DNA of 64,000 nt, from NCBI GenBank assembly GCA_009779925.1, contig WRAZ01000009.1:1-64000 (forward strand), given 5' to 3'. Made by a program: the position numbers and the translations under genes. Below, piece after piece: positions 19,461 to 56,841 of the stretch. Position 1 is the stretch's first letter. Every line of letters starts with the position of its first letter. Origin of the DNA: Chitinivibrionia bacterium. GTDB lineage: Bacteria > Fibrobacterota > Chitinivibrionia > Chitinivibrionales > Chitinivibrionaceae. The notes under the pieces were generated by a model. It was given only the letters and a program-made list of their open reading frames with translations, had not been told where the DNA came from and did no database searches.

Positions 19461-19510
19461 TTCCGTAATATACGTTTTGCCGCAAAGAATTATTGATAAA
19501 AAAGGATTTT

Positions 19511-29612: not shown

Positions 29613-29654
29613 TGGTGTTTTGGCGGCTCTAACCTTAGGAAAGTGGGCATTGTA

Positions 29655-32600
29655 ATGAAAAAACTCGGTTTGAAATTACACACGTTCTTATTAACGCTTG
29701 TCATTTTGGCAGGTGTCTTTCCTGTATTCGGGCAGTTTCCAGCGGTTCCTGCCAATGCAGTTCCGTGGGGAACAGGTGCTAGTCCTTCTTCTTCCGCTCC
29801 TTGGATAATAATGACTGCAGACCAATTAAATCAAGTGCGAAATCATACAAGTGGGCATTTTGTGCTTGGGGCTAACATAAATCTTGCTACTACTCATAAT
29901 CCTTGGACGCCAATTCCTACATTTACAGGTACGTTTAACGGCAACGGTCATATTGTCCATAATGTTAATATTATAGGTGATAGACAGATAGGCTTTTTTG
30001 GTATTTTAGGTAATGGTGGAAGAGTAGAAAATCTTGGGCTTAATAATGTTGCTGTTAGTGGGAATTCTGAGCTCGGTGGATTAGTTGGAGATGCTTTGGG
30101 TGGGGCTCATATTGTAGGATGTTTTATTACAAATGGAAATATAATAGGTAGTACTTGGGCTGGTGGATTGGTTGGGAATAACGCAGGCTCAATTAATAAT
30201 AGTTTTTTTGAGGGAGCAGTTAGAAGTATAGGTGGTGCGGGCGATTGGGTGTCGGGCATTGGCGGATTGGTAGGACAAAGTGCGGGACCAATTCTTAATA
30301 GTTACGCCAATGCAACGGTGACTTTAAGCCCCGGCTCAACTTTGCATGTAGGTGTAGGTGATATGGGCGGATTAATAGGAAATAGCGTTGGTGGTACAGT
30401 TACTCATAGTTATCATAATAGTGCCAATTTGGCTGGCGGGACTGGGGAATTTAGGGCAGATGCTGATATGCGAAACTTGCCTAACAGTAGTTTCCCTAAT
30501 TGGGATTTTGCTCTTGACAATCCAGATGCTTGGGCAAGAAATTCGGGAATAAATGATGGCTTTCCGTTTTTACAAATATTTGGAATAAGAGGAAATTTGC
30601 CTTGCGGACACGTTTGGGGAGAGTGGGGAGCTCCTGTGCATACTCCTGCTACTTGTACTGCTCCGGGGGGTAATGTCAGTGCGAGATATTGTACATTAGT
30701 AAATTGCGGAACAACTCCCAGGGGAAGGCAGACAGAAGTGGTTGGTGCGCCTCTTCTACAGCTTCCTCCGACATCTGTAGCCAGACCGACTTTTGCGGCA
30801 AATCAGACGTTTCCTTTTGGTAGCTCTCATACGGTGGAGATAACTCATAATCAGCCGAATTGGGAATATCATTATGCGGTAAGCGGAACTACAACCTCAA
30901 GTGCGGTGGGAGCTCATACTACTACAATTTCTTTGACCTCTCCTATGGCTGTCCCTGATTGTCGCCAGTGGGACGGTGGTGGAACAGGCGATATTACAAT
31001 TACTTGGGAAATAACGCGAGCAACAGGTTCGGGAACTGTCAGTGTTGCAGGTTGGACTTTTGGTGATGTGCTTGATAATATTCAAACTCGTCCGCAAGTA
31101 GCCGGAACGCCGCAGAGTTATACAGGAACTCCCGTAATTACATTCAGAAGAGTTGGGACTACCGAATGGTTGCCGTGGAATGCCACTAATATAAGTACTA
31201 CAACTGCCGCAGGTGATTATGAAGTTCGCGCGGTTTTTCCGCAAACTACAAATCATAACTCACACGAAGCGATGAATACCTTTACTATCGCCCGCAAAGA
31301 AATCGCTCCTCCGACGGCTAATACGGGACTTATTTTTAATAACGCTGTGCAAACGGGTGTTAATACAGGTACAGAATTTTCTCTTACAGGAAATACGGCA
31401 ACAAATGCAGGTAATCATAGCGCTACAGCTACTTTGGACGCTAACCATCAGTGGAACAGTGGCGATAATCGTACGCAGGCGCGGAACATACCGTGGAGCA
31501 TTGCGACGCGAGAACTTACGGTTACGGCGAGTAGCCATAACATACAATTCGGTGCGGCTCTTCCTAATAATTTCACTGTTGAAATTACGGGATTTGCAAC
31601 GGGGCATAATATTGACAATATAGGTCTGACAGGACACCCTTTGTTGCAGACGGTGTTTACTACTGCAAATACTGTTGGTGGCTTGGCGTATTCAGCGGGT
31701 AGTCCAGTGGGAACTTATAATATAACTCCGAATGTATCAGACTTGGCGGCTACTAACTATAGGTTTACTCCCGCAAACGGAACGTTGACGGTTTCCGCCA
31801 GACCTATAAACGACGCTTCTGTGGCCATTGCCATAAATGTTTCAAGTACGCATACTTACACAGGCGTTGCTCTAACGCCGACTTATACCGTTACGGCAAC
31901 CATAGACGGAACGCAGAGAACGTTGGAGCGGAATACGGATTTTACTTCGGCTTATACTAATAATACAGCTGCGGGAAATGCAACCATAACAATTACGGGA
32001 ATTGGGAATTATGCAGGCGGAGAAAGAACTCAAACATTTAATATTGCTCGACGTCCTTTGACTATCAGCGGTTTTAATATTACCAAGCAATTTGACGGAT
32101 TAAACACGATTGTAGGAGGATTTGGTACGCTTGTATTTACAGTCGGAGGTGAAAACGGGCTTCAAAACAGTGAAACGGCAAATGTCGCTTCTACAGTGGT
32201 TACAGCAACATACGGCGGAAATCTTGTTAACCCTGCACATCCGATTACTTTCAGCGGCAATTTTACAATGACGGGTGGTACTGCAAATTCAGCAAACTAT
32301 ATAATTACACAACCGACGGGTATAACGGGAGCGATTACTCTTTTTGCGCCGAATGCGCCACCTGTGCCAAGACATAGCTCGAGCAGTACGCCGCACCATA
32401 TTTCCGATAATCCCAATTCAATTACGATTATTGTGCCGTTAAACGCGCCCCACACAGCAACGCCTATGTCGCTTGTTCTTGAATACGGTATTAGCAATTC
32501 TGCTGCTACTCCTCCGACAAGTTGGCAAGACGGATTGACTTTTGACGGCTTAGCGCCTAATACCGAATATTTCTTCTTTGCGCGATATAAAGCGAACACT

Positions 32601-35600
32601 GAAAAAAACTCTGTGTCGTTGGCTTCTACGGCGTTGTCGGTACGGACGGCAGACCTCGGTATTACTATAAATCCGCAACCTGCTTCTGCTACACCGGTTA
32701 TTTTTGGAGCTATAACAAGCAGTTTGACTGTAGGGGCGACGGCTAATGGTGCCGCTGATTTAACTTACCAGTGGTTCAGAAATACAACGAACAGCAATAC
32801 GGGCGGTACACCGATTTTGGATGCGACGGGAACAACGCTTAACATACCGACAAATCTTATCGCAGGGCAACACTATTTTTATGTTGTTGTTACGGCGACA
32901 TCTACTGTAGGAACGCGTGTTGTAACCCTTGCTTCTAATGTGGCTACGGTTACTGTTGCAAAAGCGGTAGTGACAAGACCGACCATTGCTACAGGGCAAA
33001 CATTTACATTCACGGGTTTGTCGCAAACGGTTATTTTGGCAAATACTGAACATTCTGCGCGTTACAGCTTGACTACCCAAACTCAGACAAATGCCGGCAA
33101 TCACACTGTTACGGCAACATTAAACGATCCTGCTAACTTTGAATGGGCGGGTGGTACAACAGATTTGGTTGGCGGAAATGTTGTATTGTCGTGGACTATT
33201 GAGCGTGCGCCGCTTACAATAACCGCTCCAAGCGAAACAATAACTTTCGGCGATCCCGTGCCGACTTGGACTGTGGAGAATTTGACATTCAGCAGTTTTG
33301 TGAATAACGAAACTCGGGCTGTTTTGGGCGGCACTGCAAATATTGCTACAACTTATCAAAGAGGCGACAATGTGGGCACCCCCTCAATTACTGTTTCCGG
33401 GTTAACCTCTACTAATTATAATATTACGTTTGTTCCCGGAACATTGACTGTAAATCGCAGAGATATTTCAGGAGCGACGGTATCTACTACTTTTAATCCG
33501 ACTTTTAACGGCTCTGCTCATACGATTGCGCCAACAAATATTACGGTGACCCTTGACCCGCTTGTTAGCGGTTTTGAGTTTAATCCGTTATTGGCGGCAA
33601 CTCCACGACCATTCAGTGTTACTGCGCATACTGATAATACTAATGCTTCTAACCCTCCCGCGTCTTTGGCGGGTTTCACTGTTGAGGGAACAGGAAACTT
33701 TACGGGAACGGCGTCCGGAACGTTTACAATTAACCCGGCAGATCCGACGACCGTAACTTTCCCTACAGGTTTATCGCTGACTTACGGAGAAACGCTCGGC
33801 AGTATTTCACTTGCGGGCGGCTCGGCTTTGGTTGCGGGAGAATTTGAATTTGTTGATCCTACGACTTTACCGACGGTTGCGCAAAGCAATAGCCATGATT
33901 TTCCGATAAGATTTGTTCCGACAAGTTCAAATTACGCAACAGTAAACAGCAATGTTAAGATAACGGTAGATCGCGCTGTGCTTACTATTACTGCCGCCGA
34001 CAACAGCGTTGTTTTCGGTGCGGCAAATCCCAATCCGATTACTACTTGGTCGGCAAGCGGCTTTATTAACGATAATCAAGCATACAAAGATGGCGCGCTT
34101 ACGGGTACTCCGTTAATAACTACCACTCGTACATCTGCAAGCAATGTCGGCGGTTATACTATTACTATTGGAGCAGGCAGTCTTTCGGCTGCAAATTATA
34201 GCTTTGAATTTGAAAACGCAACGCTTACGGTAAATCCTGCTATTATAAATCCAGCAGTCGATGTTACCACTCCTGCGGTTGCGGTGGCGCGTGGTACTGC
34301 AACGCCGACAGGTGCCGATGCAAGCAATTTCAGTGTAACCACAGAAACTTGGAACCCGAACCATAATCCGTTCCAAGGCGGTCAAACTTACTCCGTTACC
34401 GTTGTGCTTACACGGGCGGGGACAAATCACACATTTACAGGCTTAACCACAGCAACGATTAACGAGCATAATGCGACTGTTTCCGCCAATACAGGCAACA
34501 CCGTTACGCTTTCGTATAATTTTACTACACCAACAGGCGAGGCTACTCTTGCAAGCATTGCCGTTCACGCACAACCGGCAAGATTGACTTACACCCACGG
34601 CGATGAACTTGCTCTTACGGGACTTATAGCAAGGCTTACTTACAACGACGGCACAACTCGAAATGTCGCACTTTCCGCTTTTGCCGCGGACAACATAACT
34701 ACAGATATTGAGAACGGCACTCCGCTTATTCGCGCGCATCCGGCGGCGAACGCGCACCACGATAAGCCGATTACTCTTAGTGTGCCGAATCCCGGTAATG
34801 CAGGGCAATTTTTTACTGCAATTACGAATAATTTGACAGTAAGTCAAAAACAATTGACTTGGAATGTCGGAAGTGAAACAAATCGTGCAACAGCCAATCC
34901 GAAACCGTTTGACGGAAATACTACTGCTACCCACCTAAATTCGCCGTCTTTGTCGGAAATTGTTCTCAGCGATGCCGTAACCGTCAGAGTCGGAGAATTG
35001 AACTTTGCCGACTCAGCACCCGCAACTCACGCGATAACAGCGACAGGTTGGGGGATTGAAGGTGCTGCTGCAGGCAACTATTTGCCGCCAAACAACGGTA
35101 CAGGCACGGAAAATACTCAGCCATTCTTTGCAAATGCGGAAATTACTCAGGCATCAATAGGCACACCCACAATTTTGGGAACAGTGCGTATAGGCGAGAC
35201 ATTAACGGCAAATATGGCTACCCATACGGGAACTACGTTTACTTTTGAATGGTTCCACGCAGACGTTTCGGGAGATCCGACGGGTACGGCTTTGGGCGCA
35301 GGTGCTACATACGTAATTAAAGGCAGCGATGTCGAAAAACAAATAGTGGTAATAGCCACAGCAGTTGAGGGAGGGAATCACAGCGGCTCTGCAAATTCGA
35401 CTCCGACAGGTGCTGTTCCGTTTACCATAAGATTGGAGAGAACGGGCAACATAGAAACCGATGACGTTTTCTTCGAGACAACGGGAAATATGAACAATTG
35501 GGCGGCACACGGCGCAACAGTCAATTTCAATTATGTATTGGCGAATCTCGGTACTTTGCATAATCGTATTACTTACACACCCGTGGAATTAGGAATCAGC

Positions 35601-38600
35601 CAAGTTTCTGCAGCGGGTTCGGGAATATCTCCTTATACTGTGGATCGGGCTCACGCGGATGCGGGAATAATAACCATTACGGCAACATTCTCTCACGAGC
35701 ACTCAGTAACTTGGCACTACGACGGCGGAACTCCTGCGCCGACGCAAGCCACGGTCGATCACAACGGCACAATAGCCGCACCTGCGAATATTACGAAAAC
35801 TGCCCATACACACGGTACTTACCGTTTTGACGGTTGGTTTGGTAATTCGGCGATGACAGGTACTGAGATAACATTCCCGATACAAAACGTAACTGCAGCA
35901 ACCAAGCTTTGGGCGAAGTGGACACGTCTTTACAACCTTACGGTGACAGCAGCGGGTTCAAACGGCACTGTCGGTGGTACGGCGGCGGGGGCTTATATTG
36001 CCGATTATTCTGTCAATATAACTGCGACACCGAATGCAAACTATAGATTTGTAAACTGGACTGTTACGGGAATAACACCACCTCTTGCGGAAGCAGCACT
36101 TACCGCAAGTCCGCTGACATTTGGTATGCCGACGAATGCAGTTGCCGTGACTGCGAATTTTGCTCTGAATAATCACACTATAACTTGGAATCATAACAAT
36201 GCAGCAACTTCGCCTGCAGTTATTACTACAACGACAGTTGAACACAACGGCAATATAGCAGCAGGTGAGACCGCGACAGCGAGAACGGGCTGTGAATTTG
36301 TCGCTTGGTTCAGCAATTCAGATTTAGCAAATGCGAACAGAGTAACATTCCCTGTAAACAATATTACTGCCCCGCGCGAATTCTGGGCAGGTTGGAGAGG
36401 AATTTCGCTTACGCAAACCACACAGACCTCGCTGCTTTCGCCTCACGATTTCGGTAAAGAGGATTTCAACTATGCTCCGATAACGCCGTTAAGCATAACA
36501 ATTACCAACTTGGGTAATTTGCCGACAGATGATTTGACGGTTGAATTGAGCGGCACAGGCGCAAGCAGTTTTACATTGTCTACTCTGACAATTTCGAGTA
36601 TTGCCGCCGACGGTACGCCAACATTTACGGTAGTTCCGAATCACGGACTTTCGGTGGGAAAATATACTGCGACAGTCACTGTCAGCAACACAACCAACAA
36701 TATTTCCGAGAAATTTGATGTTATTTTTGAGGTAGAGGCAATTGTTATTGACGACCCTGATGCTCTCACCGTTGCCGCTTTCGGCGCGTTTACCTTTAAC
36801 GGCGCGCTGCAAACACCACTGGGTGGAGCGGTAACTTTTGGTACTTCTCCTGCCTTGACTGTGCCGGGCTCTTGGAGTCCAGTTCGAAACGTCGGAGATT
36901 TGACTGAATTTACCCCTGCCCCCGACGGAAATTTCACGTTTGTATCCTCTACGGGAGTAACGCTTAGCAAAGATCCGAAAATGATCCAGCGGGATATTGC
37001 ACTTGCCGATATTGCCACAATATCTTCCGTAAGATATACAGGAGCGCAACATACGCCTGCGCCGACGGTAACCGATAATGTTGATGTAGGCGGAACGCTT
37101 ACCAATATTATTGCGTCAAGCGACTTCGATGTTTCTCACGGCGCTAACATAGTAGTGGGAACGGATATCGGAAGTGTTACCATTACAGCGACAACAACAG
37201 GAAATTACAGCGGTTCAAAAACAGCGAATTTCACTATAGAGAAAATGCAAGTAGGCGGCGGAAGTAATCCTAATGGAGACGATGTAATAGACATAAATAA
37301 TCCTACCCACCCAGCTAACGTGGTTTTGCGTTTCCCGACAGCGGGAGACATTACTTATCCGGCGGCGCTTGGTACGGCAGTGCTTTCGGGGGCAATCGGC
37401 GAAAATTACGGAGACTTTGCTTGGGTGCGAAGCGATGCTGCTACCCATACACCTAATGTAGGCGATAATCAGTCGTTTGCGATGAGTTTTACACCAAATG
37501 CTTTGGGGGCGGCTAATATAAATTGGGCAGCTGGCGTTGCAGGTTGGAACGGTACGGCTGTCGTGCGGAATGTATCTGTAAATGTGAAACCTGCGCCAAT
37601 TACCGCGGTTGGCGTTACGGGCGTTGTGCCTCCTGTTGTTGCGGTTGCGCCGAGCAATGCGGCAAATCGCGTTGAAAATACTTATACCGTGACTTCGGCG
37701 GGAGCTACTTGGGATCCTGCTCACAATCCGTTCCAAGGCGGAGAAGCTTATACCGTGAGCGTTACGTTTCAAGCAAATGACAACCATATTTTTGCTTCAA
37801 GCGTTTCGGCGACAATAAACGGAGAAGCTGCGACGCCTGTTTCTCGTGATGACGTTGCCCGCACAATAACGTTTTCGTATAAATTCAGTACTACGGATTC
37901 TCGCACGCTTGCCGGTATTGCCATCACAACACCTCCGACTAAGATGAGCTATGTTCACGGCGAGTTCCTTGATCTTACCGATCTTTCAGCAACGCTCAGC
38001 TACGACGACGGCACCGCCGCTCTTGTTTCTCTTACAAATTTTGCCGACAGCAATATTACGTTAAGCATAAACGGAGCAAATGTAAATTTAGCAACTCCGG
38101 AGCGTTTGGTTCACTTGCTTCACGATGATTATCCTCTTGTAGTATCCATACCGCGTCCTTCGCCTGCAACGGGTAATTTTACGGCTTCAACAAGCGATTT
38201 GACGGTTGCTAAACGTGGACTTATACTGTACAGCGCCGCTCATACCCGTGAATTTGACGGCGGCAATACTATCGGCGCTACCAATGTAGTGTTTACGTTT
38301 GCGGATTATAACACTACAACAAATACCGGCGTAGTTTCGGGTGAAGTGGTAAATGTAGCAACTTATACCGCCGTTTATACCTCCGTTGATGCTGCCACAA
38401 CCACAATAAATGTAAGCGCTATAACACTTGGCGGAACCGCAGAGGGCAACTATACCATAGGTCAGACTTGGAATAATTTCTCTCTTATTTCTCCGACAAC
38501 GGGCGGTTCGATTGGTATTACTCCCCGCGTAATTACAAGTGTGGCAATAAGCGGAATTACTCAACCTGTAAGAGACGCAACCCCCGTAGCTGCCGCGCCT

Positions 38601-44600: not shown

Positions 44601-47600
44601 GATATTACCTATACAGACGGTGAATTTAAGTATTTCTTAAAAAATACGGCTACCGCAACCATAAACGCAACGGATAATCTTGCTCCGTTGGGAACAAACG
44701 CTTCGGGTGTGGCAAAAATTGAGTTCCACACATCCGAAACACAAATAACTTTGGGTTGGAATGCACTTACTTGGACAGATGGAACAAGCGTTAATTTGTC
44801 CGCTAATTGGAAAGGTTTCATATACGCCAGAATTACGGATGTTGCAGGAAACGTTAGCATTATCGGCTCTGACGGAATTGTCGTTTATACGGACGCTGCG
44901 CCTCCTGCTACCGCAAACATAAGACACGTAAGAGGCGCGACTACTCCCGACAGTGAAAGAAGCGTTGCGATAACATTGAACGGCAACACGGTTGCAGGAA
45001 TTGCGAACGACGCAACTTCATTGACATCGGCGCAATTCTCTGTAAATGCGAGCGGCGTAATTACGTTTACCGCAGATTATCTGAATACTTTGGCGACAGG
45101 AACGCACACTTTAACCGTATCGTATAATCCGTTCGGCGAGACATTTGTAATGGACGGCATTAACGTCGCTCCGGCAACGTCCGCTATTACGCTGACCATT
45201 GTACAGCCTATAACCATTATGGGCGACGATATAACATACAGCGGCAAAGTTTTCGACGGTAATACAAATGTGGTCGGAATAGTGCTCATAACGCCTGATA
45301 TTCCTGTGCAGTGGAAAAATGCCGCTCATATTGTTACTGTCAGTTTCAACAGCGCCAATCCGCCTTCGTCATTCAATAATGCTGATGCAGGTTCAAGAAC
45401 AGTTACATTTGCGGGACTTGCGCTTGGCGGTACACACGCAAGTTATTATGAGCTTACCTCGACAACTGCGACTAAAACAGGCGTTGAAATAATTCCTGAT
45501 ACTATCCGTCTTGCAAAAATTACGGTGACTGCACCTGCAACAGGCGTAGCGCCGAGCGATGCCTATACTATTGAAAATAGCGAAAGCGACGAATATGACG
45601 GCGACGAGCATTTCACCGTAGCAAGCGTAAGTTGGACTCCGGCGGATAATCCGTTTGTCGGCGGCGAAGAATATACTGTAAGTGTTGTGCTTCAAAGATT
45701 AAATGCAAACTTTACGTTTGAAAACGGCTTAGATGGTATTGTAGAAATTAACGGAGAAACCGCAACAAGTATAAGTATAGCCCCGGACGGCTTTACCGCG
45801 ACATTGACATACAAGTTTGGCGCGACTACAGCTCCGGAAATTACTATCGGCACGCAACCGGTAAACAGAACGGTTACGTATGGAGATACTCACCCTGCCA
45901 ATCTTTTGAGCGTTGCGGCGACAGTCAATAATACGGCGGCAACAATAAGTTATCAGTGGTATCGCTCCGAAAACATCTACCGAACAGGTACGCAAACTCC
46001 TGTCGGTACTAATTCTGCAAATTTTATCATACCGCCAAACACTGTGGTCGGGACATATTTCTATTACGTTGTTGTCAGCGCAGGTTTGGGAGCGGCTCCC
46101 AAAACTTCCGACGTGGCTACAATTACGGTTAATCAAAGACCGCTTACAATAACAGGTGTGAATGCAATTAATCGTAATTATGATGGTACGGATGTTGTTG
46201 CTCTAACAGGCGGTACACTGCAAGGTCTTGTCAATCCTACGTTCTATGTCGGCAACATTGCGGACTTCATCGGTTTCACGCCCGGCAACGGAACTGTGTC
46301 AAACAAAAATGTAGGAGACAATAAAGCCGTAACAACAAATATTACACTTACGGGAAGTAGCGCCGGCAATTACATATTAACTCAACCTACAGGTATTACG
46401 GTTAATATTACCGCAAGACCGCTGACTGTCGAATTTACTGCGGACGAGAAAATTTATGACGGCAACACATCTGCGACGATATTGACCCGCAGTGTTTTTT
46501 TGGGCTTGGTGGCGGGCGACGAAAATGATGTAGAAGTAGTCGGCGGCACGGCGACATTTGACAACAGAAACGTCGGCACAGCAAAAACCGTGACAGCTAC
46601 AGGGTTTACGCTTTCTGGAACCGCGTCGGGCAATTACACGATACAAACAATAAACACAACTACCGCAAATATTACCGCTCGTCCGATAATAATAACTCCT
46701 GATGCGTTAATAAGTAAGATTTTCGGCGAAACCGACCCTGTGCTAACATATACGTATGAAGTCGGCGCTCCGCTTTCCGCCCAAACCCCTGTTCCGCCTG
46801 CTTTGGTCGGCGGCGATGCGTTTACGGGTGCTTTGAGCCGTGTCCTCGGTGAGACTGTTGGTGATTCACCTTATAATATTTTGCGAGGCGACCTTGAAAT
46901 CAACGATGGCAACAGCGGTAATAATTATAACATAACGATTACTACGGGAATAACGTTTGCTATAACCCGCAAGTCAATCTATGTTCCCGTCGCCATAACA
47001 GGTTTAACTTATAACAGCACCCCGCAAGTAGGTATAACAACAGTAAACGGCGGAGTAGGTTATACCGAAGCAGGTCAAAGTGCCAATGCTCACACCAACG
47101 GCACCGCTACTGCCGCAGGTACACATACTATCCGCGTAACAGTTGACGGAAATCACTACTGGAATGCGGGCGCTTCGTTGGTATTGTATAGAGATATCGA
47201 CTTTACTATTGAGAAAGCGGTACCGCAAGAAGGCGACCAATTTACGATACCGACAGGCTTGACAGCAGTTTTCCACGATCAGTTGTCAGTAATTACTTTC
47301 ACCGGTTCTTATGACGGATGGGAATGGGTGATACCTACAGACCTTGTAGGCAATGTCGGCAATCGTGAACACGAAGCGACATTTATACACCCAAGCGGAA
47401 ATTACAGCGCAATTATCAAAACTTTAACTGTAAATGTTATTCCTTTTGAAATAGTGATAACTCCCGACGCGGGACAACACAAAGAATTTGGCGACCCTGA
47501 GCCTTCAGAGTTTACGTTTGACCACGCTCCTGCTTTGTTTGGTGCGGACGAAACCGATTTTAAAACCAATGCTCGTTTGGCTCGCATTGCAGGCGAAACA

Positions 47601-50600
47601 GTGGGAACTCACGCATTTGCTTTGGGTAATTTGCAAGATGTAGCAGGTGATAATTATAAAATCGTAATGGTCGGCAATCCTGAAACATTTGAAATTCGCG
47701 GCTTGGATATAAATGACCCGAATATAATTGTTGAACCTATTGCCGACGAAACATTTACGGGCTTGGCGATAGAGCCTACTGTAGTTATCAGCCGAAACGG
47801 TACGCCTCTTGTTAAAGATGTTGATTTCACAGTAAGCTTCAGCGCAAATGTGGACGTCGGCACAGTAACGATAACGATAAGCGGTGCAGGTAATGTCGGC
47901 GGTGTTGTCGGTTTCAGTGGAACGAGAACAACTACATTTGAAATTGTTCCGTTGGTGATAACAATAACCCCCGACGCAGACCAATATAAAGTTCTTGGCG
48001 ACGCAGAGCCTGCTGTGTTTACATTTACACACAACCCTGCCTTAATTGGTGCCGACGAAACCAATTTTGTTGATTACGCTTACTTGGATCGTGAGAGCGG
48101 TGAAACAATCGGTACTTATGAATTCACATTGAATAATTTGCAAAGTATTGCAGGTTCCAATTATGAAATCGTAATGTATGCCAATGCCGAAACTTTTGAA
48201 ATCAAAGGCTTGGATATTGGCGACGGAAGCATAGTGATTGCTTCTATTGATGACCAACCGTTTACGAGCTTGCCGATAACTCCGATATTAGAGCTCAGTC
48301 GAAACGGCACTGCTCTTGTTGAAGGTTTGGACTTTACCGTAAGTTTCAGTGCTGATAACGTGAATGTCGGTATTGTAATTATAACGATAAACGGTATAAA
48401 CGGTTTCAGCGGAACAACTACTACAACATTTAAAATAGTTCCGTTGGATATAGTAATAACTCCTGACGCGGGTCAAGAGAAATTGTTTGGCGACGATGAC
48501 CCGACAGAGTTTACATTTGCGCACGCTCCGATTTTGTTTGGCGCAGACGTAACCAATTTTACGGCAAATGCTCGTTTGGCTCGTGTTGCAGGCGAAACAG
48601 TGGGCACACACGCGTTTATCTTGGGTAATTTGCAAGTAATTGCTGGCGATAACTATAATATTGTAATGGTTGCCGCTCCTGCCACCTTTGCAATTAACGG
48701 TTTGGATATTTCCGACGCGAGCATAGAGATTGAAGACATTGCCGACCAAGTGTTTACGGGTTTGGCGATAACCCCGACGGTTGAAATAAGCCGCAAGGGT
48801 CTCTCTCTTGAAGAAGGTGTTGATTTCAGCGTAAGTTTCGGTGCAAACGTAAATGTCGGCATTGTCTCGGTAATGATAACGGGTATCGGCGGTTTCAGCG
48901 GTGATACGACTATAACATTTAATATAGTTCCGTTGGAAATCGTAATCACTCCTGACGTTGACCAAAGCAAAGTTCTTGGCGATGCAGACCCTGCAGTGTT
49001 TACCTTTACGCACGCTCCGATTTTGCGCGGTAATGGTGGCGCAGACGAAACCGATTTTGCGACAAACGCTCGCTTGGAACGCGCAACAGGCGAAACAGTC
49101 GGCACTTACGCATTTACTTTGGGCAATTTGCAGGCGACCGCAGGCAACAATTATGCAATCGTTATGGTTGACAATCCCGCCACCTTTGCAATTACAGGTT
49201 TGGATATTTCCGACGGAAGTATAATTGTAGCAGATATTGCCGCCCACGTGTTTACGGGCTTGGCGATAACTCCGACTATAGAACTCAGCCGAAACGGTAC
49301 GGCTCTTGTCGAAGGCGTTGATTTCACCGTTGCATTCAGCCCCAACATAAATGTCGGCACCGTAGAGATAACTATAACGGGCATTGGCGGTTTCAGCGGC
49401 ACTACAACTACAAGCTTTGAAATCGTTCCGTTTGAGATAGTAATTACCCCCGACGCAGACCAAAACAAATTGTTTGGTGATGAAGACCCGATATTTACCT
49501 TTACGCACAATCCGACTTTGGTTGTTGCGGCAGACGAAATCAATTTTGCGGCAAACGCTCGGTTGGGTCGCGCAGATGGTGAAACTGTCGGTATTTATGC
49601 GTTCACTTTGGGTAATTTGCAGGCTGTTGCGGGTGCGAATTATACAATCGTTATGGTTAACGACCCCGAAACTTTTGAAATCAAAGGTTTGGATATTTCC
49701 GACGGAAGCATAGAGATTGCCGATATTGCCGCCCACGTGTTTACAGGCTTGGCGATAACTCCGACGGTTGAAGTAAGCCGCAAGGGGCTGTCTCTCGTTG
49801 AAGGTGTAGATTTTGCAGTTGCCTTCAGCGCTAATGTAAATGTCGGCACCGTAGAGATAACTATAACGGGCATTGGCGGCTTCAGCGGTGATACAACCAT
49901 AACATTTGAAATACTTCCGTTGCAAATAACGATTACTCCCGACGCAGACCAAAGCAAAGAATTTGGCGAGGACGACCCGATATTTACCTTTACGCACAGT
50001 CCTGCTTTAATCGGAAATGACACATTTACGGGCGCGCTCGAACGTGTTGAAGGCGAGGCGATAGGAGATTACGAATTTGTGCTCGGTACATTAAGCGCGG
50101 GAAGCAACTACGAACTTGTATTGGCGGACGATGCCGCTACATTTGAAATAATAGATACTGCGCCGTGCATTCACGTTTGGGGCGATTGGAGCGATTGGGA
50201 CATCATAACTCCTGCAAGTTGCGACGCTCCCGGAATGATGACAAGGGCAAGAGTGTGCGTTCATTGCGCTATCGTTAACGAATCTACCCGTTTAATAGCG
50301 CAACTCAACGGCGATAATTGCTACAACCTGCCGTGTATTCACGTTTGGAGCGATTGGAGTGATTGGTCTGTAATTAAACCTGCAACTTGCGAACTTCCGG
50401 GGATGATGGAAAGAGTAAGACTTTGTACTCTTTGCAGTGTCGTAAATGAGGTAGTCCGTTTAATAGCGCAACTCAATGGCAATAATTGCTACGATCCATC
50501 GCAAAATCGCGACGCTCGCGAAGCCTGCGACGGCGAAAGATACGGCATAGTGCTTGAAAACGCGGTAGTCAGAGATTCGGCGATTATAAGAGTTATTGTT

Positions 50601-50846
50601 CCCGAAGTCTCAAAGGCAAGGATTGGAATTTTTGACGCAACGGGTAATCTTTTGTTTGACAGCTCCAAGAAGTCGAGCAAAAAACCTGTATTCGGCGACG
50701 AGCATTATGAAATTAAGACTGTTTGGAATTTGTCCAACAAGTCAGGAAGAATGGTTGCAAACGGCACATATTTAATTGTGGTTCAGGTACGTGGCGAAAG
50801 CGGCAAAATACATCAGTATTCGGCAAGAATAGGAGTTAGAAGATAA
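29655..50846 (+). CDS. Giant repeat-rich surface protein (7,063 residues; GLUG, MBG/YDG, InlB-like and FlgD-like domains)
   Basis: One uninterrupted 21.2 kb frame. Start chosen at ATG 29655 (AGGAAAG 12 bases ahead) over GTG 29643. A signal peptide (1-27) is followed by GLUG-type repeats (about 50-270, e.g. GFFGILGNGGRVENLG), one Cys/His/Trp module (317-352), and a very long array of Ig-like MBG/YDG domains (about 372-5930) with about eleven KxYDGN-type motifs. Within it lie InlB-like repeats (about 2016-2250) and ASH-like domains (about 2259-2362 and 4043-4162). Five and a half near-identical ~164-residue units follow (5931-6832), then two Cys/His/Trp modules (6838-6947) and a FlgD-like C-terminal domain. 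The architecture is that of a fibrous adhesin on the cell surface; binding partner unknown. Its stop shares a base with the next gene's ATG. Confidence 0.9.
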   Translation: MKKLGLKLHTFLLTLVILAGVFPVFGQFPAVPANAVPWGTGASPSSSAPWIIMTADQLNQVRNHTSGHFVLGANINLATTHNPWTPIPTFTGTFNGNGHIVHNVNIIGDRQIGFFGILGNGGRVENLGLNNVAVSGNSELGGLVGDALGGAHIVGCFITNGNIIGSTWAGGLVGNNAGSINNSFFEGAVRSIGGAGDWVSGIGGLVGQSAGPILNSYANATVTLSPGSTLHVGVGDMGGLIGNSVGGTVTHSYHNSANLAGGTGEFRADADMRNLPNSSFPNWDFALDNPDAWARNSGINDGFPFLQIFGIRGNLPCGHVWGEWGAPVHTPATCTAPGGNVSARYCTLVNCGTTPRGRQTEVVGAPLLQLPPTSVARPTFAANQTFPFGSSHTVEITHNQPNWEYHYAVSGTTTSSAVGAHTTTISLTSPMAVPDCRQWDGGGTGDITITWEITRATGSGTVSVAGWTFGDVLDNIQTRPQVAGTPQSYTGTPVITFRRVGTTEWLPWNATNISTTTAAGDYEVRAVFPQTTNHNSHEAMNTFTIARKEIAPPTANTGLIFNNAVQTGVNTGTEFSLTGNTATNAGNHSATATLDANHQWNSGDNRTQARNIPWSIATRELTVTASSHNIQFGAALPNNFTVEITGFATGHNIDNIGLTGHPLLQTVFTTANTVGGLAYSAGSPVGTYNITPNVSDLAATNYRFTPANGTLTVSARPINDASVAIAINVSSTHTYTGVALTPTYTVTATIDGTQRTLERNTDFTSAYTNNTAAGNATITITGIGNYAGGERTQTFNIARRPLTISGFNITKQFDGLNTIVGGFGTLVFTVGGENGLQNSETANVASTVVTATYGGNLVNPAHPITFSGNFTMTGGTANSANYIITQPTGITGAITLFAPNAPPVPRHSSSSTPHHISDNPNSITIIVPLNAPHTATPMSLVLEYGISNSAATPPTSWQDGLTFDGLAPNTEYFFFARYKANTEKNSVSLASTALSVRTADLGITINPQPASATPVIFGAITSSLTVGATANGAADLTYQWFRNTTNSNTGGTPILDATGTTLNIPTNLIAGQHYFYVVVTATSTVGTRVVTLASNVATVTVAKAVVTRPTIATGQTFTFTGLSQTVILANTEHSARYSLTTQTQTNAGNHTVTATLNDPANFEWAGGTTDLVGGNVVLSWTIERAPLTITAPSETITFGDPVPTWTVENLTFSSFVNNETRAVLGGTANIATTYQRGDNVGTPSITVSGLTSTNYNITFVPGTLTVNRRDISGATVSTTFNPTFNGSAHTIAPTNITVTLDPLVSGFEFNPLLAATPRPFSVTAHTDNTNASNPPASLAGFTVEGTGNFTGTASGTFTINPADPTTVTFPTGLSLTYGETLGSISLAGGSALVAGEFEFVDPTTLPTVAQSNSHDFPIRFVPTSSNYATVNSNVKITVDRAVLTITAADNSVVFGAANPNPITTWSASGFINDNQAYKDGALTGTPLITTTRTSASNVGGYTITIGAGSLSAANYSFEFENATLTVNPAIINPAVDVTTPAVAVARGTATPTGADASNFSVTTETWNPNHNPFQGGQTYSVTVVLTRAGTNHTFTGLTTATINEHNATVSANTGNTVTLSYNFTTPTGEATLASIAVHAQPARLTYTHGDELALTGLIARLTYNDGTTRNVALSAFAADNITTDIENGTPLIRAHPAANAHHDKPITLSVPNPGNAGQFFTAITNNLTVSQKQLTWNVGSETNRATANPKPFDGNTTATHLNSPSLSEIVLSDAVTVRVGELNFADSAPATHAITATGWGIEGAAAGNYLPPNNGTGTENTQPFFANAEITQASIGTPTILGTVRIGETLTANMATHTGTTFTFEWFHADVSGDPTGTALGAGATYVIKGSDVEKQIVVIATAVEGGNHSGSANSTPTGAVPFTIRLERTGNIETDDVFFETTGNMNNWAAHGATVNFNYVLANLGTLHNRITYTPVELGISQVSAAGSGISPYTVDRAHADAGIITITATFSHEHSVTWHYDGGTPAPTQATVDHNGTIAAPANITKTAHTHGTYRFDGWFGNSAMTGTEITFPIQNVTAATKLWAKWTRLYNLTVTAAGSNGTVGGTAAGAYIADYSVNITATPNANYRFVNWTVTGITPPLAEAALTASPLTFGMPTNAVAVTANFALNNHTITWNHNNAATSPAVITTTTVEHNGNIAAGETATARTGCEFVAWFSNSDLANANRVTFPVNNITAPREFWAGWRGISLTQTTQTSLLSPHDFGKEDFNYAPITPLSITITNLGNLPTDDLTVELSGTGASSFTLSTLTISSIAADGTPTFTVVPNHGLSVGKYTATVTVSNTTNNISEKFDVIFEVEAIVIDDPDALTVAAFGAFTFNGALQTPLGGAVTFGTSPALTVPGSWSPVRNVGDLTEFTPAPDGNFTFVSSTGVTLSKDPKMIQRDIALADIATISSVRYTGAQHTPAPTVTDNVDVGGTLTNIIASSDFDVSHGANIVVGTDIGSVTITATTTGNYSGSKTANFTIEKMQVGGGSNPNGDDVIDINNPTHPANVVLRFPTAGDITYPAALGTAVLSGAIGENYGDFAWVRSDAATHTPNVGDNQSFAMSFTPNALGAANINWAAGVAGWNGTAVVRNVSVNVKPAPITAVGVTGVVPPVVAVAPSNAANRVENTYTVTSAGATWDPAHNPFQGGEAYTVSVTFQANDNHIFASSVSATINGEAATPVSRDDVARTITFSYKFSTTDSRTLAGIAITTPPTKMSYVHGEFLDLTDLSATLSYDDGTAALVSLTNFADSNITLSINGANVNLATPERLVHLLHDDYPLVVSIPRPSPATGNFTASTSDLTVAKRGLILYSAAHTREFDGGNTIGATNVVFTFADYNTTTNTGVVSGEVVNVATYTAVYTSVDAATTTINVSAITLGGTAEGNYTIGQTWNNFSLISPTTGGSIGITPRVITSVAISGITQPVRDATPVAAAPTATGTVTGGTINIPASAITWSPAHTSFLSNTSYTAGSITLTADNNHVFASDVAITHADLSGVATNGASITPSGTPLLRTATVAIEFVQTAGAVISIETHPTSRQLTYGGITATDTLGVVATVDGGAERSYQWFWNTTASSVGGTAILGATSATFAIPDTLEVNLDGTPGTHFFFVEVRATLGATAQRSNPATITINPRPLTVAGTTVTQSKTYDGNDAAVITVHGDISAELRLGDVQYTDQATVAADVVGVRLTATATFASPDVNNVLDANTITITYAIAGSRAHNYTAPASTNNTSGNITRRPVTITPHAATKVYGEADPLPFAFTPSETIIAGNTQTGGLNRYDNTNNDVGAYPFIRDNLSWGTNYDLTLATGTDVPVFTITAAPITSVAVIDVVEPEVAQAPQSTANAVGSTYGVTPAGATWSPTHNPFRAGETYTVSVTLSANKNHIFPALPTVITGTINGETATVARTGDGTIKLARAIAATGTATVTSITVETQPNLSYTHGDKLNLSELKAELHYDDGTSRVVAFADFGANNITTDVADDIQLIRHTHNNTSIAVIFDNSATIRVNTNNLTIAAKNIAITATASNKEYDGNTNATITLSATPNFISTPAPTITHTSATFDNASVGTGKTVTVSGLSLIAPSDANAAIANNYSITNASATATTTANITARELTIQSVRHTKVFDGSTTATGVEIIFDGILGTDEVSATATTANYTSRNAGTVAMNLTGITLTGAQAGNYSIAGTWSGNVGVPTPVAITTAGITAKPISITSVRHTKVYDGGVDAVGVEITLDGVVSPDDVSATATAVYTSRNAGTTTINISAVSLSGTGSVNYSIEQVWDGLTVGIPTPVAITTAGITKKPITITPDANQGKEFGTATDPAITFTVSPALISPDAFETGTALTRAPGTAVNRYNIDIGTLAINDGNNGDNYDITLAEEVFTITPTAINPVRVIGVVAPMSDSIRSQTADVPSGITNYSVHSVSWSPVPAGNIFSRGGVYTVQVVLEAASDFVFVNDASFVWEINGQTAIPSDFTTMASPVIGNAGNRVTLSFTFPATLTYGMTVAPALLDFGERPFGYTSATVPQAQLITVTNTGTGATGNLDITVLPADLFVITPAPGTPATFSVAAGAGQSGTISVQPAMALGYGTHIATITISGGSHDIAAQTVEATFVVGKADPEVVFPTDLTAVYLQNLSNVSLPGNGTSVAPGTFVWVVPENPNATPIVWITADANATAVGEVGQQTHTLRFVPDDLVNFSSPTSPVNVQVSPAPITLARIMASINVENSATNATVPLVGDKASNAATIDGITPANSFVFSGVSVATPIVWTPELSPTNMFRGGVIYTATVTLTAGANFTFNATTNTQINGSAAGITYISGTVAGDAGNSITISRTFTETGARTATDGESKIEIVSLPTIMSYDHGDELDLAGFTARITFNDGTYITDIVPANFAANNITIANIGGESVYDGMSLIKTIHDDQPLVLNWHTHTANSNDPDDLRAPTTPATLTVDEIDVGDEIEVAWLGAPFIFNSEPHRPTFTVKLDGEELTGTAASPTATVADTYDFSFEFSNNINAALATATTAPTLTITLRNNFSGTRVVKFTIEPLPVVITPASNQEKIFGQADPTFTFASDIPNTPAGLSGNFTAAIGNTVPFSRETGENVRAANYRFVNIQSSAAGSNYTLSLHTTPVTFEIKPLPVTITPKAGLNKTYGETEPTFGTVDDHFTADWSSTLNITQTIAMTFTGGIAREAGENVRAANYLFTGLGTAPNGLSAGDNFALNFANPSNIVFEIKPAVITISGFNISKPFDGTNAVLATCLSNLTFTGLVNGETANVNVAGVTATYNNAEVGTDKAITFSGAFGMTPGTTNPATPGNYTITQPTNIRGIITAGFSPIKGPLEAPAPWHYSITEPNANGWINTDFVITARTGYQLSLTNTADNTAWSNTLTRSAETHNGSISFFVRRTSDGAISAEATETYKIDKTDPSATITIDATDITYTDGEFKYFLKNTATATINATDNLAPLGTNASGVAKIEFHTSETQITLGWNALTWTDGTSVNLSANWKGFIYARITDVAGNVSIIGSDGIVVYTDAAPPATANIRHVRGATTPDSERSVAITLNGNTVAGIANDATSLTSAQFSVNASGVITFTADYLNTLATGTHTLTVSYNPFGETFVMDGINVAPATSAITLTIVQPITIMGDDITYSGKVFDGNTNVVGIVLITPDIPVQWKNAAHIVTVSFNSANPPSSFNNADAGSRTVTFAGLALGGTHASYYELTSTTATKTGVEIIPDTIRLAKITVTAPATGVAPSDAYTIENSESDEYDGDEHFTVASVSWTPADNPFVGGEEYTVSVVLQRLNANFTFENGLDGIVEINGETATSISIAPDGFTATLTYKFGATTAPEITIGTQPVNRTVTYGDTHPANLLSVAATVNNTAATISYQWYRSENIYRTGTQTPVGTNSANFIIPPNTVVGTYFYYVVVSAGLGAAPKTSDVATITVNQRPLTITGVNAINRNYDGTDVVALTGGTLQGLVNPTFYVGNIADFIGFTPGNGTVSNKNVGDNKAVTTNITLTGSSAGNYILTQPTGITVNITARPLTVEFTADEKIYDGNTSATILTRSVFLGLVAGDENDVEVVGGTATFDNRNVGTAKTVTATGFTLSGTASGNYTIQTINTTTANITARPIIITPDALISKIFGETDPVLTYTYEVGAPLSAQTPVPPALVGGDAFTGALSRVLGETVGDSPYNILRGDLEINDGNSGNNYNITITTGITFAITRKSIYVPVAITGLTYNSTPQVGITTVNGGVGYTEAGQSANAHTNGTATAAGTHTIRVTVDGNHYWNAGASLVLYRDIDFTIEKAVPQEGDQFTIPTGLTAVFHDQLSVITFTGSYDGWEWVIPTDLVGNVGNREHEATFIHPSGNYSAIIKTLTVNVIPFEIVITPDAGQHKEFGDPEPSEFTFDHAPALFGADETDFKTNARLARIAGETVGTHAFALGNLQDVAGDNYKIVMVGNPETFEIRGLDINDPNIIVEPIADETFTGLAIEPTVVISRNGTPLVKDVDFTVSFSANVDVGTVTITISGAGNVGGVVGFSGTRTTTFEIVPLVITITPDADQYKVLGDAEPAVFTFTHNPALIGADETNFVDYAYLDRESGETIGTYEFTLNNLQSIAGSNYEIVMYANAETFEIKGLDIGDGSIVIASIDDQPFTSLPITPILELSRNGTALVEGLDFTVSFSADNVNVGIVIITINGINGFSGTTTTTFKIVPLDIVITPDAGQEKLFGDDDPTEFTFAHAPILFGADVTNFTANARLARVAGETVGTHAFILGNLQVIAGDNYNIVMVAAPATFAINGLDISDASIEIEDIADQVFTGLAITPTVEISRKGLSLEEGVDFSVSFGANVNVGIVSVMITGIGGFSGDTTITFNIVPLEIVITPDVDQSKVLGDADPAVFTFTHAPILRGNGGADETDFATNARLERATGETVGTYAFTLGNLQATAGNNYAIVMVDNPATFAITGLDISDGSIIVADIAAHVFTGLAITPTIELSRNGTALVEGVDFTVAFSPNINVGTVEITITGIGGFSGTTTTSFEIVPFEIVITPDADQNKLFGDEDPIFTFTHNPTLVVAADEINFAANARLGRADGETVGIYAFTLGNLQAVAGANYTIVMVNDPETFEIKGLDISDGSIEIADIAAHVFTGLAITPTVEVSRKGLSLVEGVDFAVAFSANVNVGTVEITITGIGGFSGDTTITFEILPLQITITPDADQSKEFGEDDPIFTFTHSPALIGNDTFTGALERVEGEAIGDYEFVLGTLSAGSNYELVLADDAATFEIIDTAPCIHVWGDWSDWDIITPASCDAPGMMTRARVCVHCAIVNESTRLIAQLNGDNCYNLPCIHVWSDWSDWSVIKPATCELPGMMERVRLCTLCSVVNEVVRLIAQLNGNNCYDPSQNRDAREACDGERYGIVLENAVVRDSAIIRVIVPEVSKARIGIFDATGNLLFDSSKKSSKKPVFGDEHYEIKTVWNLSNKSGRMVANGTYLIVVQVRGESGKIHQYSARIGVRR
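30603..30710 (+). repeat. N-terminal copy of the Cys/His/Trp module in the giant protein
   Basis: Encodes CGHVWGEWG, a TPATCTAPGG stretch and ARYCTLVNCG. The C-H-W-W...TC..PG...R.C...C pattern recurs twice at 50166-50495, so these modules flank the MBG array. The Cys/His spacing would allow metal binding or disulfides. Confidence 0.7.
34230..43150 (+). repeat. Four spaced copies of a ~200-residue composite module in the giant protein
   Basis: Copies at about 34230-34850, 37600-38215, 39755-40340 and 42430-43110. Each has a first part ending in HNPF-x-GG-x-YTVSV-like sequence and TINGE-like turns, and a second part with YxHGDxLxL and ARLTYNDGT-like segments (MSYVHGEFLDL, LSYTHGDKLNL, MSYDHGDELDL). 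They are diverged and separated by YDG domains, indicating old block duplications. Confidence 0.7.
40625..41195 (+). repeat. Tandem duplication of a YDG domain in the giant protein
   Basis: Two consecutive ~280-base units, each encoding SVRHTKV(F/Y)DG, GVEI, DEVSATAT or DDVSATAT, YTSRNAGT and PTPVAITTAGIT. The near identity of the last segment at the DNA level suggests a recent duplication or gene conversion. Confidence 0.75.
47445..50150 (+). repeat. Tandem array of five and a half ~490-base units in the giant gene
   Basis: Units begin at 47445, 47952, 48444, 48933, 49431 and a half unit at 49920 (spacing 507, 492, 489, 498, 489). Each encodes ITPDADQ-like and FGDxDP starts, FTFTHxPxL, ARLxRxxGETVGTYAFTLGN-like, GLDISDGSI-like, LAITPTVExSR-like and GIGGFSGxTT-like segments. 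High similarity makes unequal recombination likely, so the copy number may vary between strains. Confidence 0.92.
50166..50495 (+). repeat. Two C-terminal Cys/His/Trp modules in the giant protein
   Basis: Two units 168 bases apart encode CIHVWGDWSDW or CIHVWSDWSDW, a PxSC/PATC turn with a PGMM motif, ARVCVHC or VRLCTLC, and RLIAQLNGDNCY or RLIAQLNGNNCY. Six cysteines and one or two histidines per unit keep the same places. They precede the FlgD-like C-terminal domain. Confidence 0.85.
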
Positions 50847-51865
50847 TGATTAAGATTATGAAAAATTTGCAGTGTTTGTGTTTTTTAATTGTTTGTTTTT
50901 TACCTCAGGCGGCTTTAGCGCAAAATAACCTTGTGTCGCAGGTTCCTGATGTTCGGACAGCAGTTTTTTCACAGCACGGACGTTTCGCCGTTCAACTTTT
51001 TTACGTTGACAGCCGTCATCTGGCACAGCATATAGTCGCAAGATTTCAGCAAGGTGGAAGCCCTGCTTATTATGTGTGGGTGCAAGACCCGCTCCCGACG
51101 AAAATCGGCACATTTTTTGCCATTCGCATAGGCGCCTTCGATTTAAGGTCTCAGGCGCAAAACTTCGGAAGAACCTATTTAACGCCGCTTGGTTATGAAT
51201 TTACGGTGGAAGAGCGTGAAGGCGAGCAACTTGTCGGTGAAGATGAGGTAGTGCAAGTCGATACAATCGTAAATGTTAGAGACACATTGCACTTAGCGAC
51301 ACGTCTTGTTGCGCCCACCCAACTTCAGCCTGATTTAGCCCCGCTTTTATTCTCGGTGCGTCCCGAATTTGTCGCGGGAACTTCGGTTATGGGCGCGGGA
51401 TTAACTTTTGAACTCGGCACACTCTACAATCACGGACTTTATTTTGCCGCCGAACTCAGCGGCGGCGGTGTGTATTACGGCGGAATGCTTAATTTAGGCA
51501 GACGAGTAATAGGATACGATAAAAATATGCGGCATATAGCGGGAATAAGCGGCGGTTATCTGAACGTGCGGTATTTGATAACTTTTACCGAAGACGGCAA
51601 TAAAATAGACAATCATCCCGTCCGAAACCGAACAATGGGCAATAATCGCGCATTCGGCGGCATTTTCTGGAAAATACTTTCGGGCGATGTAAGAAATTTT
51701 GACCTCACCAACAGAGTACTGTTCGGATTTAAGGAAAACCCTGTCTGGTACTATCGCGAACCATCGAGAGTTGAGTGGAAAAGAGAATTTAACGCCGTTT
51801 ACAGTGTCAGCATAGGATACACCTTTAAAAGAAGACGCAGTGCAAACGCGACGGGAGGGGAGTGA
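50846..51865 (+). CDS. Outer-membrane protein with N-terminal SPOR-like domain and C-terminal barrel
   Basis: 339 residues; its ATG shares a base with the giant gene's stop (TAATG), with GGAG 11 bases ahead. Signal peptide 1-25 (ending ALA). Residues ~45-120 resemble a SPOR domain (RFAVQLFYVDSRHLAQHIVA, FFAIRIGAFDLRSQAQNF), a fold that binds septal or denuded peptidoglycan. Residues ~165-335 alternate as in an outer-membrane beta-barrel (GLTFELGTLYNHGLYFAAEL, GGGVYYGGMLNLG) and end YSVSIGYTFKRR. It is the structural counterpart of the OmpA-type protein at 1271: both couple a barrel with a wall-binding domain next to a giant or FlgD-tailed protein. It likely anchors, exports or organises that protein; inference. 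Confidence 0.7.
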   Translation: MIKIMKNLQCLCFLIVCFLPQAALAQNNLVSQVPDVRTAVFSQHGRFAVQLFYVDSRHLAQHIVARFQQGGSPAYYVWVQDPLPTKIGTFFAIRIGAFDLRSQAQNFGRTYLTPLGYEFTVEEREGEQLVGEDEVVQVDTIVNVRDTLHLATRLVAPTQLQPDLAPLLFSVRPEFVAGTSVMGAGLTFELGTLYNHGLYFAAELSGGGVYYGGMLNLGRRVIGYDKNMRHIAGISGGYLNVRYLITFTEDGNKIDNHPVRNRTMGNNRAFGGIFWKILSGDVRNFDLTNRVLFGFKENPVWYYREPSRVEWKREFNAVYSVSIGYTFKRRRSANATGGE

Positions 51866-51867
51866 TT

Positions 51868-52260
51868 ATGAGACGAAATAAAAATATCGATGTTTTCAAA
51901 AAGTCATTTTTATTTGCTTTGTTGTTTTGTATCTTTCTTATGATACCCGCCTGCGACTTTATCGTAGGAAAAATCGAACTCGGCGGATTTGACGACAGTC
52001 CTCTTATTTTTACTGTTCATTTTACTGTCAACGAAGACTTTAATTGTAGCACTTGTGATGAAATACGTGGCGAAAAAGGAACTGTCATAATCTTGCCTAC
52101 TCCGACTCCTGTAGTAGAGGGTTATTTTTTTGACGGATGGTGGAGCGAAGGCGAACTAAATTACCATTTTTACGGTTGTGGCGGTGAAGCGTTTACAATA
52201 GATGGTGATGTAGTAATGGTTCCGCAAAAAGGTAATATGCCAATTCAATGCGTTAATTGA
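51868..52260 (+). CDS. Small lipoprotein with an InlB-like repeat
   Basis: 130 residues from the ATG five to six bases after GGGAGGGGAG; a GTG at 51862 overlapping the previous stop is an alternative. The N-terminus is a lipoprotein signal (KKSFLFALLFCIFLMIPAC, lipidated Cys29 by position). Residues ~50-115 look like one Listeria-Bacteroides/InlB B-type repeat: FTVHFTVNEDF, EKGTVIILPTPTPVVEGYFF and DGWW, like the repeats inside the giant protein. Two extra CxxC-like cysteines (CSTC) are present. Third gene of the giant-protein operon; probably an outer-membrane-tethered partner. Confidence 0.75.
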   Translation: MRRNKNIDVFKKSFLFALLFCIFLMIPACDFIVGKIELGGFDDSPLIFTVHFTVNEDFNCSTCDEIRGEKGTVIILPTPTPVVEGYFFDGWWSEGELNYHFYGCGGEAFTIDGDVVMVPQKGNMPIQCVN

Positions 52261-55827: not shown

Positions 55828-56841
55828 GTGAAAGCACTTGTTATTATATTGTTTTTGACCTCTGTTTGCGTTTTTGCGGAAAGGTCGGTTTACGGAAACG
55901 AGAACAGATTTATGTTTGCCTCGCCTCGTTCGTTCGCGCTTGGGGAAGCGAGCAATGCAATTTCGGATGAGCCTATTCCCGCAAATAATCCTGCGTCTGT
56001 AATTTTAAGCGAAAGAACAAATTTCTTTTTGGGCTACACAAGCTTTTACAACAATATTTTATGGGTCGGAAACACTTACGCCACTATTTTAATAGACTCC
56101 TTAAACGCGGCAAGCATTTTTGTGGGATATTTGAGCATCCCCGACATAGATTCCGTGCGCGCTATTATCGGCACCAACCCAAACGACACCCTCGGCTACG
56201 AAATTTCTATGGTATCGAGCAGTGAATTGTCCGTAAATTTTAATTTTGCGCGAAAAATCATAAACACCCCACGCATAAATTTAAGTGTAGGCGCCGCGCT
56301 GAATATGATGCGTCGCCGCCTTATAAATTGGACGGGCTACGGAATTGGTGCAGATTTGGGCTTTTTGCTTACGACCGACCGCGGAAATCACGTCGGACTG
56401 CAAATCGACAATATTACGACCCACTACACGCATTGGAGTCCCGAATATCACGAGAACACGCTTCCGCAGTGCTTTTTGTCATACGGCTTTTCCCGCGACT
56501 TAAACGAGAATTTGCGTATGAATTTAGTCTATCGCTCTCCCGACCTCTTCGGAAATTCGGGCGTTGCGGCAAGTACCCTCGGCGAAAGCAATCAGTTTGA
56601 AGACAACATAAGAAGCGGCTCGATTTTCGATAATCCGCAAAATATATTCACCGCCGCAGGATACGGCGCAGAATTTGTCATAAAGCAGTTAGTCTCCTTG
56701 CGCGTCGGTCTAACAGACTCTCATAAACTGACTTTTGGCGGCGGTGTTCGTCTTTTTGAACGCGCAGACATCGACTTCGGTTATTTCTATTCCTCCGCTT
56801 TAGACGGAACATATAGTATTTCTTTTAGATTTTATTTGTAA
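55828..56841 (+). CDS. PorV/UPF0164-like outer-membrane barrel protein
   Basis: 337 residues from a GTG with AAAGGA ahead. Signal peptide 1-17 (ending VFA). The mature start follows the PorV/PorQ/UPF0164 pattern: MFASPRSFALGEASNAISDE then NNPASVI, followed by alternating strands to the end (FSRDLNENLRMNLVYRS, VGLTDSHKLTFGGGVRLF, TYSISFRFYL). These FadL-like barrels include PorV, the partner of type IX secretion that carries cargo to the surface attachment step. With FlgD-tailed proteins in the same window, a role in their export is plausible but unproven; other barrels of the family have unknown roles. Confidence 0.72.
   Translation: MKALVIILFLTSVCVFAERSVYGNENRFMFASPRSFALGEASNAISDEPIPANNPASVILSERTNFFLGYTSFYNNILWVGNTYATILIDSLNAASIFVGYLSIPDIDSVRAIIGTNPNDTLGYEISMVSSSELSVNFNFARKIINTPRINLSVGAALNMMRRRLINWTGYGIGADLGFLLTTDRGNHVGLQIDNITTHYTHWSPEYHENTLPQCFLSYGFSRDLNENLRMNLVYRSPDLFGNSGVAASTLGESNQFEDNIRSGSIFDNPQNIFTAAGYGAEFVIKQLVSLRVGLTDSHKLTFGGGVRLFERADIDFGYFYSSALDGTYSISFRFYL

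Follow-up and report, generated by a model that had tools for sequence, protein, structure and literature searches.

Adhesins of Bacteroidota with a type B C-terminal domain (CTD), such as SprB, are encoded directly upstream of a carrier barrel that they require for secretion and that presumably anchors them, and some have been proposed to be tied to the cell wall via PorE (PMC12618676, PMC9143113). The known carriers, PorP/SprF proteins, have 14 strands (PMC9143113). SprF/PorG is linked to GldK by a disulfide bond (PMC12635249), and the FGE fold can serve as a docking hub in PorK (PMC12421860).

The window, which is the whole stretch of DNA analysed here, covers bases 1-64,000 of contig 9 of a Chitinivibrionia genome (2.5 Mb, 97.6% complete), whose nearest named relatives are termite-gut Fibrobacterota MAGs (Chitinivibrionia, Chitinispirillia and Candidatus Fibrimonas termitidis). 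Genes were called as the longest open frame, and signal peptides and lipoproteins were assigned by motif and by eye. The locus encodes a giant secreted protein, an outer-membrane barrel protein and a lipoprotein (Table 1). The giant open reading frame (29643-50846, forward strand) gives 7067 aa from a GTG at 29643 or 7063 aa from an in-frame ATG at 29655. It starts with a putative Sec signal peptide, judged by eye only, MKKLGLKLHTFLLTLVILAGVFPVFG, contains MBG_2, YDG, CBM_X2 and Flg_new_2/Flg_new modules according to Pfam, and ends in YSARIGVRR, with basic final residues (GVRR). The three genes are joined without gaps, as originally described, the first junction being TAATG (50844-50848) and the second a stop/start overlap of 4 nt at 51862. 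A MatE transporter gene, which seems to have no relation to the three-gene set, overlaps the lipoprotein gene by 4 nt.

Table 1. Features of the giant-protein operon, of the start operon and of a downstream barrel gene, in window positions.
Feature	Position	Strand	Remarks
Giant secreted surface protein	29655..50846	+	signal peptide, GLUG-like start, many MBG/YDG-type Ig-like repeats, FlgD/T9SS-like CTD
Tandem repeats near giant C-terminus	47905..50002	+	4.3 similar copies of 489 bp (163 aa) each
CTD of giant	50538..50843	+	predicted Ig-like, structurally closest to CTD of T9SS PorU
Outer-membrane barrel protein, 339 aa	50846..51865	+	signal peptide, SPOR domain, linker, predicted eight-stranded barrel
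Probable SPOR (peptidoglycan-binding) domain of barrel protein	50975..51166	+	below Pfam cut-off; 45% identity to a SPOR protein
Barrel domain, family A1	51341..51844	+	8 predicted strands; 13 complete copies in genome
Lipoprotein, 132 aa	51862..52260	+	InlB/Flg_new-like repeat, lipobox PAC/DFI (cleavage at the slash), no FGE domain
C-terminal end of protein with diverged FlgD-like CTD	3..398	+	start operon; cut by contig end
Secreted protein of unknown family	483..1274	+	start operon
Different barrel, then InlB-like and OmpA domains	1271..3208	+	start operon
Lipoprotein with fibronectin III domains	3212..4219	+	start operon
PorV/PorQ-like barrel	55828..56841	+	42.7 bits to PorV2, below cut-off; about 4 kb downstream, outside operon

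The barrel domain, called A1, corresponds to residues 165-335 of the 339-aa protein and its sequence has no match in Pfam, NCBIfam or PDB. An AlphaFold2 model built from 13 aligned copies has eight strands (pLDDT 87.7), and its Foldseek neighbours are OmpW, Ail, OmpX and OmpA. The predicted strand number and the lack of a TIGR03519 match in the genome at E 0.1 argue against homology with PorP/SprF. No cysteine is conserved among 28 barrel proteins, so a disulfide link of the SprF/PorG-GldK type is unlikely here. The SPOR domain (PF05036) scores 19.6 bits, just under the 21-bit cut-off, and is probably real, since over this region it shares 45% identity with another protein encoded in the genome, one in which SPOR reaches 38.6 bits. 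The position of the wall-binding domain varies, being SPOR in front of the barrel in the window, OmpA after the barrel in L014 and OmpA before it in L129. Within the window genome the A1 barrel is joined to SPOR, OmpA, GLUG-like and unrecognised N-terminal parts, and many of the N-termini carry no recognised wall-binding domain. One further copy (L019 168-843, contig 38 of G000) lies in two overlapping frames, probably because the gene is broken or the sequence contains a frame error. A1 is not a broad family, as it is present in 9 of 168 Fibrobacterota genomes and a scan of species genomes gave Fibrobacterota only.

The lipobox of the 132-aa lipoprotein, IPAC/DFI, belongs to a type common among sibling lipoproteins, which share CDFI or C-S/G-D-F. 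Its Flg_new match in Pfam reaches 21.2 bits, under the 27-bit cut-off, and Pfam finds no FGE domain in it, unlike its counterparts in the cassettes of relatives, which have FGE domains and mostly also Flg_new. These FGE lipoproteins are not true GldK/PorK proteins, given that the best of them scores 87 bits against a TIGR03525 cut-off of 350. By analogy with PorK, FGE docking is a possible role for the lipoprotein in relatives; the window lipoprotein lacks this domain. Many proteins of the genome contain FGE-sulfatase domains (L011 9972-12917, L014 7415-8197 and others).

The proposal to look for the same adjacency in related genomes gave a strong positive result, as the order CTD giant, barrel, lipoprotein is found in five genomes of another family and in one of a third family. 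Outside the genus, a CTD protein (1182-2011 aa, one of them truncated at a contig end) lies directly upstream of 7/8 A1 barrels with upstream sequence, with a gap of at most 88 nt, and a lipoprotein lies directly downstream of 9/9. In family f4 these counts are 6/6 for the CTD protein (five genes complete at 1361-2011 aa, the sixth truncated at a contig end) and 7/7 for the lipoprotein, while family f8 has two loci, one with a full set in which OmpA is fused before the barrel and the other with barrel and lipoprotein only. Most of the upstream proteins have MBG/YDG repeats as in the giant; in one of them GLUG and Ig-like modules take the place of these repeats. Under a rough null that sets the per-gene probability of a CTD neighbour at about 1.3%, these non-genus associations have p values of about 6e-13 (CTD upstream) and 2e-11 (lipoprotein downstream), ignoring the relatedness of the loci, which are not independent of each other when they come from related genomes. 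Because the order is conserved in relatives, the association of the cassette exceeds chance.

Not every MBG/YDG giant has an A1 barrel. Several MBG/CTD proteins of relatives (L132, L135, L139-L141) have no adjacent barrel, and in G003 and G004 a lipoprotein comes next instead. A different lipoprotein lies directly after MBG/YDG giants in same-family genomes without an A1 barrel (L134 5112-6068, L147 2692-3672). The barrel tree, which is mostly unresolved, does not establish a single origin of the CTD association; it contains one supported group (96/95) of eight non-genus barrels, seven next to a CTD protein and one truncated at a contig end.

Neighbourhoods were collected locus by locus, and several loci end at contig ends. 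In the window genome a CTD protein is found directly upstream of 2 of the 13 A1 barrels, a third having one gene between, an association that is hardly above chance (p about 0.05, rough null). A lipoprotein directly follows 10 of the 13 (the null calculation used 11, including one that lies directly upstream). The sister genome keeps the lipoprotein at 3/6 barrels and shows a CTD protein at 0/6, some of its loci being cut at contig ends. The concern attached to the original prediction, that the barrels might lie mostly away from such surface proteins, thus has a divided outcome: relatives keep the adjacency, whereas 10 of the 13 copies in the window genome lack a CTD protein immediately before them and the start-operon barrel shows no conservation in such a setting. 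For this reason barrel and lipoprotein are the firmer unit within the genus, which the giant joins in a subset of loci. Three barrel-lipoprotein pairs follow one another at L018 423-9615, where GLUG-like stretches recur ahead of the barrels.

A second, unrelated barrel family (PF13568, OMP_b-brl_2), found in the same taxonomic order as the window genome, has a similar habit without the lipoprotein, and with SPOR once. In that case (G036) the genes after an MBG giant with CTD encode a GLUG/InlB protein and then a barrel combining SPOR and OMP_b-brl_2. The relatives of this barrel, too, tend to come after large secreted proteins. For three of them (L152, L153, L154) the protein directly upstream has a tail that passes the T9SS cut-off; one comes (L156) after a CTD protein recognised by the A3 profile and two (L159, L160) after tails below the cut-off; three more (L155, L157, L133) have the CTD protein one gene further upstream. 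Another four (L161, L163-L165) follow similar-looking tails, among which L164 gives a weak match and the others none. L158 and the L162 trio do not fit.

The start operon had been described as built like the giant operon and as sharing its C-terminal domain. The layout agrees (CTD protein, secreted protein, barrel with OmpA, lipoprotein), while its barrel is unrelated to A1 by sequence and the two C-termini are related only distantly (27.7 bits, E about 2.6e-7). Its first gene is incomplete because the window begins at base 1 of contig 9. The InlB-like and OmpA C-terminus of its barrel protein is 47% identical to the barrel protein of L014, a locus that encodes a 2093-aa CTD giant, an A1 barrel with an InlB/OmpA end and then a lipoprotein; by this resemblance, L014 links the start operon to the A1 cassette. 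The start-operon barrel has few relatives (two more places in the same genome and a weak one in the sister genome) and no conserved CTD neighbour was seen for it, so this operon was rejected as a second instance of the A1 cassette.

The giant CTD (last 100 residues) belongs to a family with about 68 members in the window genome, mostly without a barrel, and at least one member in each of the 40 relatives searched. Thirteen aligned tails of this family match T9SS models (PorZ, Por_Secre_tail, PorU) and FlgD weakly. In the model of the giant CTD (pLDDT 91.7) the best PDB match is the PorU CTD, with a TM score of 0.73 and 25% identity. In profile searches the giant tail scores 13.5 bits against the type A model TIGR04183, below its 23-bit cut-off, and does not match type B TIGR04131; TIGR04183 is matched by 10 of the 13 tails at E up to 1, and the CTD is nearer type A/PorU models than type B models. 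The genome encodes the T9SS translocon SprA (347 bits, cut-off 200), and the GldK model TIGR03525 gives 16 matches, all under cut-off. Given the PorU-like model of the CTD and a SprA over its cut-off, T9SS is the likely export route of the giant, though its own tail stays under the curated cut-off. The PorV/PorQ-like protein downstream is a possible general T9SS shuttle. Elsewhere in the window, a 793-aa secreted protein (19493-21874) has a T9SS type A sorting domain over the cut-off (25 vs 23 bits).

The favoured reading, to which we give a probability of about 0.55, is a three-gene cassette that carries and anchors a T9SS substrate, with a logic like that of SprB-SprF without being a member of that family. 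It builds on the observed gene order, its conservation, the predicted folds of barrel and CTD and the presence of SprA; from these we infer T9SS export, binding of the CTD by the barrel, wall tethering, a role of the lipoprotein and physical anchoring. The giant would be made with a Sec signal peptide, cross the outer membrane by T9SS using its FlgD/PorU-like CTD and remain on the cell surface as an adhesin. The neighbouring barrel in the outer membrane would hold or receive the CTD of the giant encoded beside it, and the tie between that giant and the cell wall would be made by the periplasmic SPOR domain of the barrel protein (in relatives, by OmpA or other domains), while the lipoprotein, with its InlB-like repeat (an FGE docking domain in most relatives), may complete the complex at the membrane. 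The recurrence of the three-gene set in distant relatives makes it probable that barrel and lipoprotein serve the giant. Against a carrier role, an eight-stranded barrel is small beside the 14-stranded PorP/SprF (PMC9143113).

The functional unit could instead be barrel and lipoprotein, as a general envelope or surface-lipoprotein module beside which the giant is an incidental co-transcribed neighbour that needs no barrel of its own. The window genome speaks for this, as most of its barrels are followed by a lipoprotein and only 3/13 have a CTD protein within two genes upstream, and so do the sister genome and the many CTD proteins that manage without a barrel. Nearly all non-genus copies do follow a CTD giant, however, and the second barrel family does much the same without a lipoprotein, which makes this reading rather unlikely. 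We consider it quite improbable that the barrel acts by itself as an OmpA-like tether to the wall, stabilising the envelope when giant adhesins exert drag and making no contact with the CTD, with the giant anchored by an ordinary PorV/PorU route; the SPOR and OmpA domains on the barrels, the nearby PorV/Q-like protein and the type A leaning of the CTD would agree with it, but it leaves unexplained why, in several families, only a few bases separate the barrel gene from the giant gene. Surface-protein genes often cluster and this genome is full of CTD and FGE-domain genes, so chance or loose clustering with no functional link might produce such a locus; the fixed order with near-zero gaps in three families, together with the p values given above, already disfavours this explanation and leaves it with very little probability. 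As to the modular display or anchoring system first proposed, a modular cassette is real, as indicated by the conserved order in relatives, the similar habit of a second barrel family and the varying wall-binding domains; the proposal is partly supported, and its simplest form is opposed by the barrels of the window genome that lie away from CTD proteins and by the start operon, which matches in layout only.

A broader idea, which we put forward tentatively at somewhat less than even odds, is that Fibrobacterota without PorP/SprF evolved, at least twice (in two barrel families unrelated to each other), small barrels that each serve one particular T9SS giant and are fused to interchangeable wall anchors, SPOR or OmpA, as a separate carrier-and-anchor solution. 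If true, the pairing of a secreted giant with its own outer-membrane barrel would be a general design independent of the PorP/SprF fold, and it would explain how termite-gut Fibrobacterota keep adhesins of very large size on the cell surface. One could then test carrier specificity and wall anchoring in a simpler part, a barrel of 165 residues with a fused wall-binding domain.

Among known systems, the pairs of type B CTD adhesins and PorP/SprF, such as SprB-SprF, share with the cassette a very large T9SS adhesin with an outer-membrane barrel gene directly downstream and several pairs per genome, with orphans, and some of their operons add a wall-binding PorE-like protein (PMC9143113, PMC12618676). 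The cassette differs in its eight-stranded barrel, which is not a 14-stranded FadL-family barrel and has no PorP/SprF homology, in a CTD nearer type A/PorU models, in a wall-binding domain fused to the barrel and in the lipoprotein gene that comes next. A barrel gene directly downstream of the CTD substrate, which is characteristic of PorP/SprF, is found in the window and in relatives, but not at most paralogues of the window genome. PorG with the PorK/GldK FGE lipoprotein also combines an eight-stranded outer-membrane barrel with an FGE-fold lipoprotein (PMC12635249, PMC12421860), whereas the cassette barrels have no conserved cysteine tail, the FGE lipoproteins are far under the GldK cut-off and there are several cassettes per genome instead of one core system. 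Barrels of the OmpA/OprF type have eight strands and an OmpA or SPOR domain as well, while the window protein has its SPOR domain before the barrel and is linked to a secreted giant, encoded upstream, and to a lipoprotein, encoded downstream.
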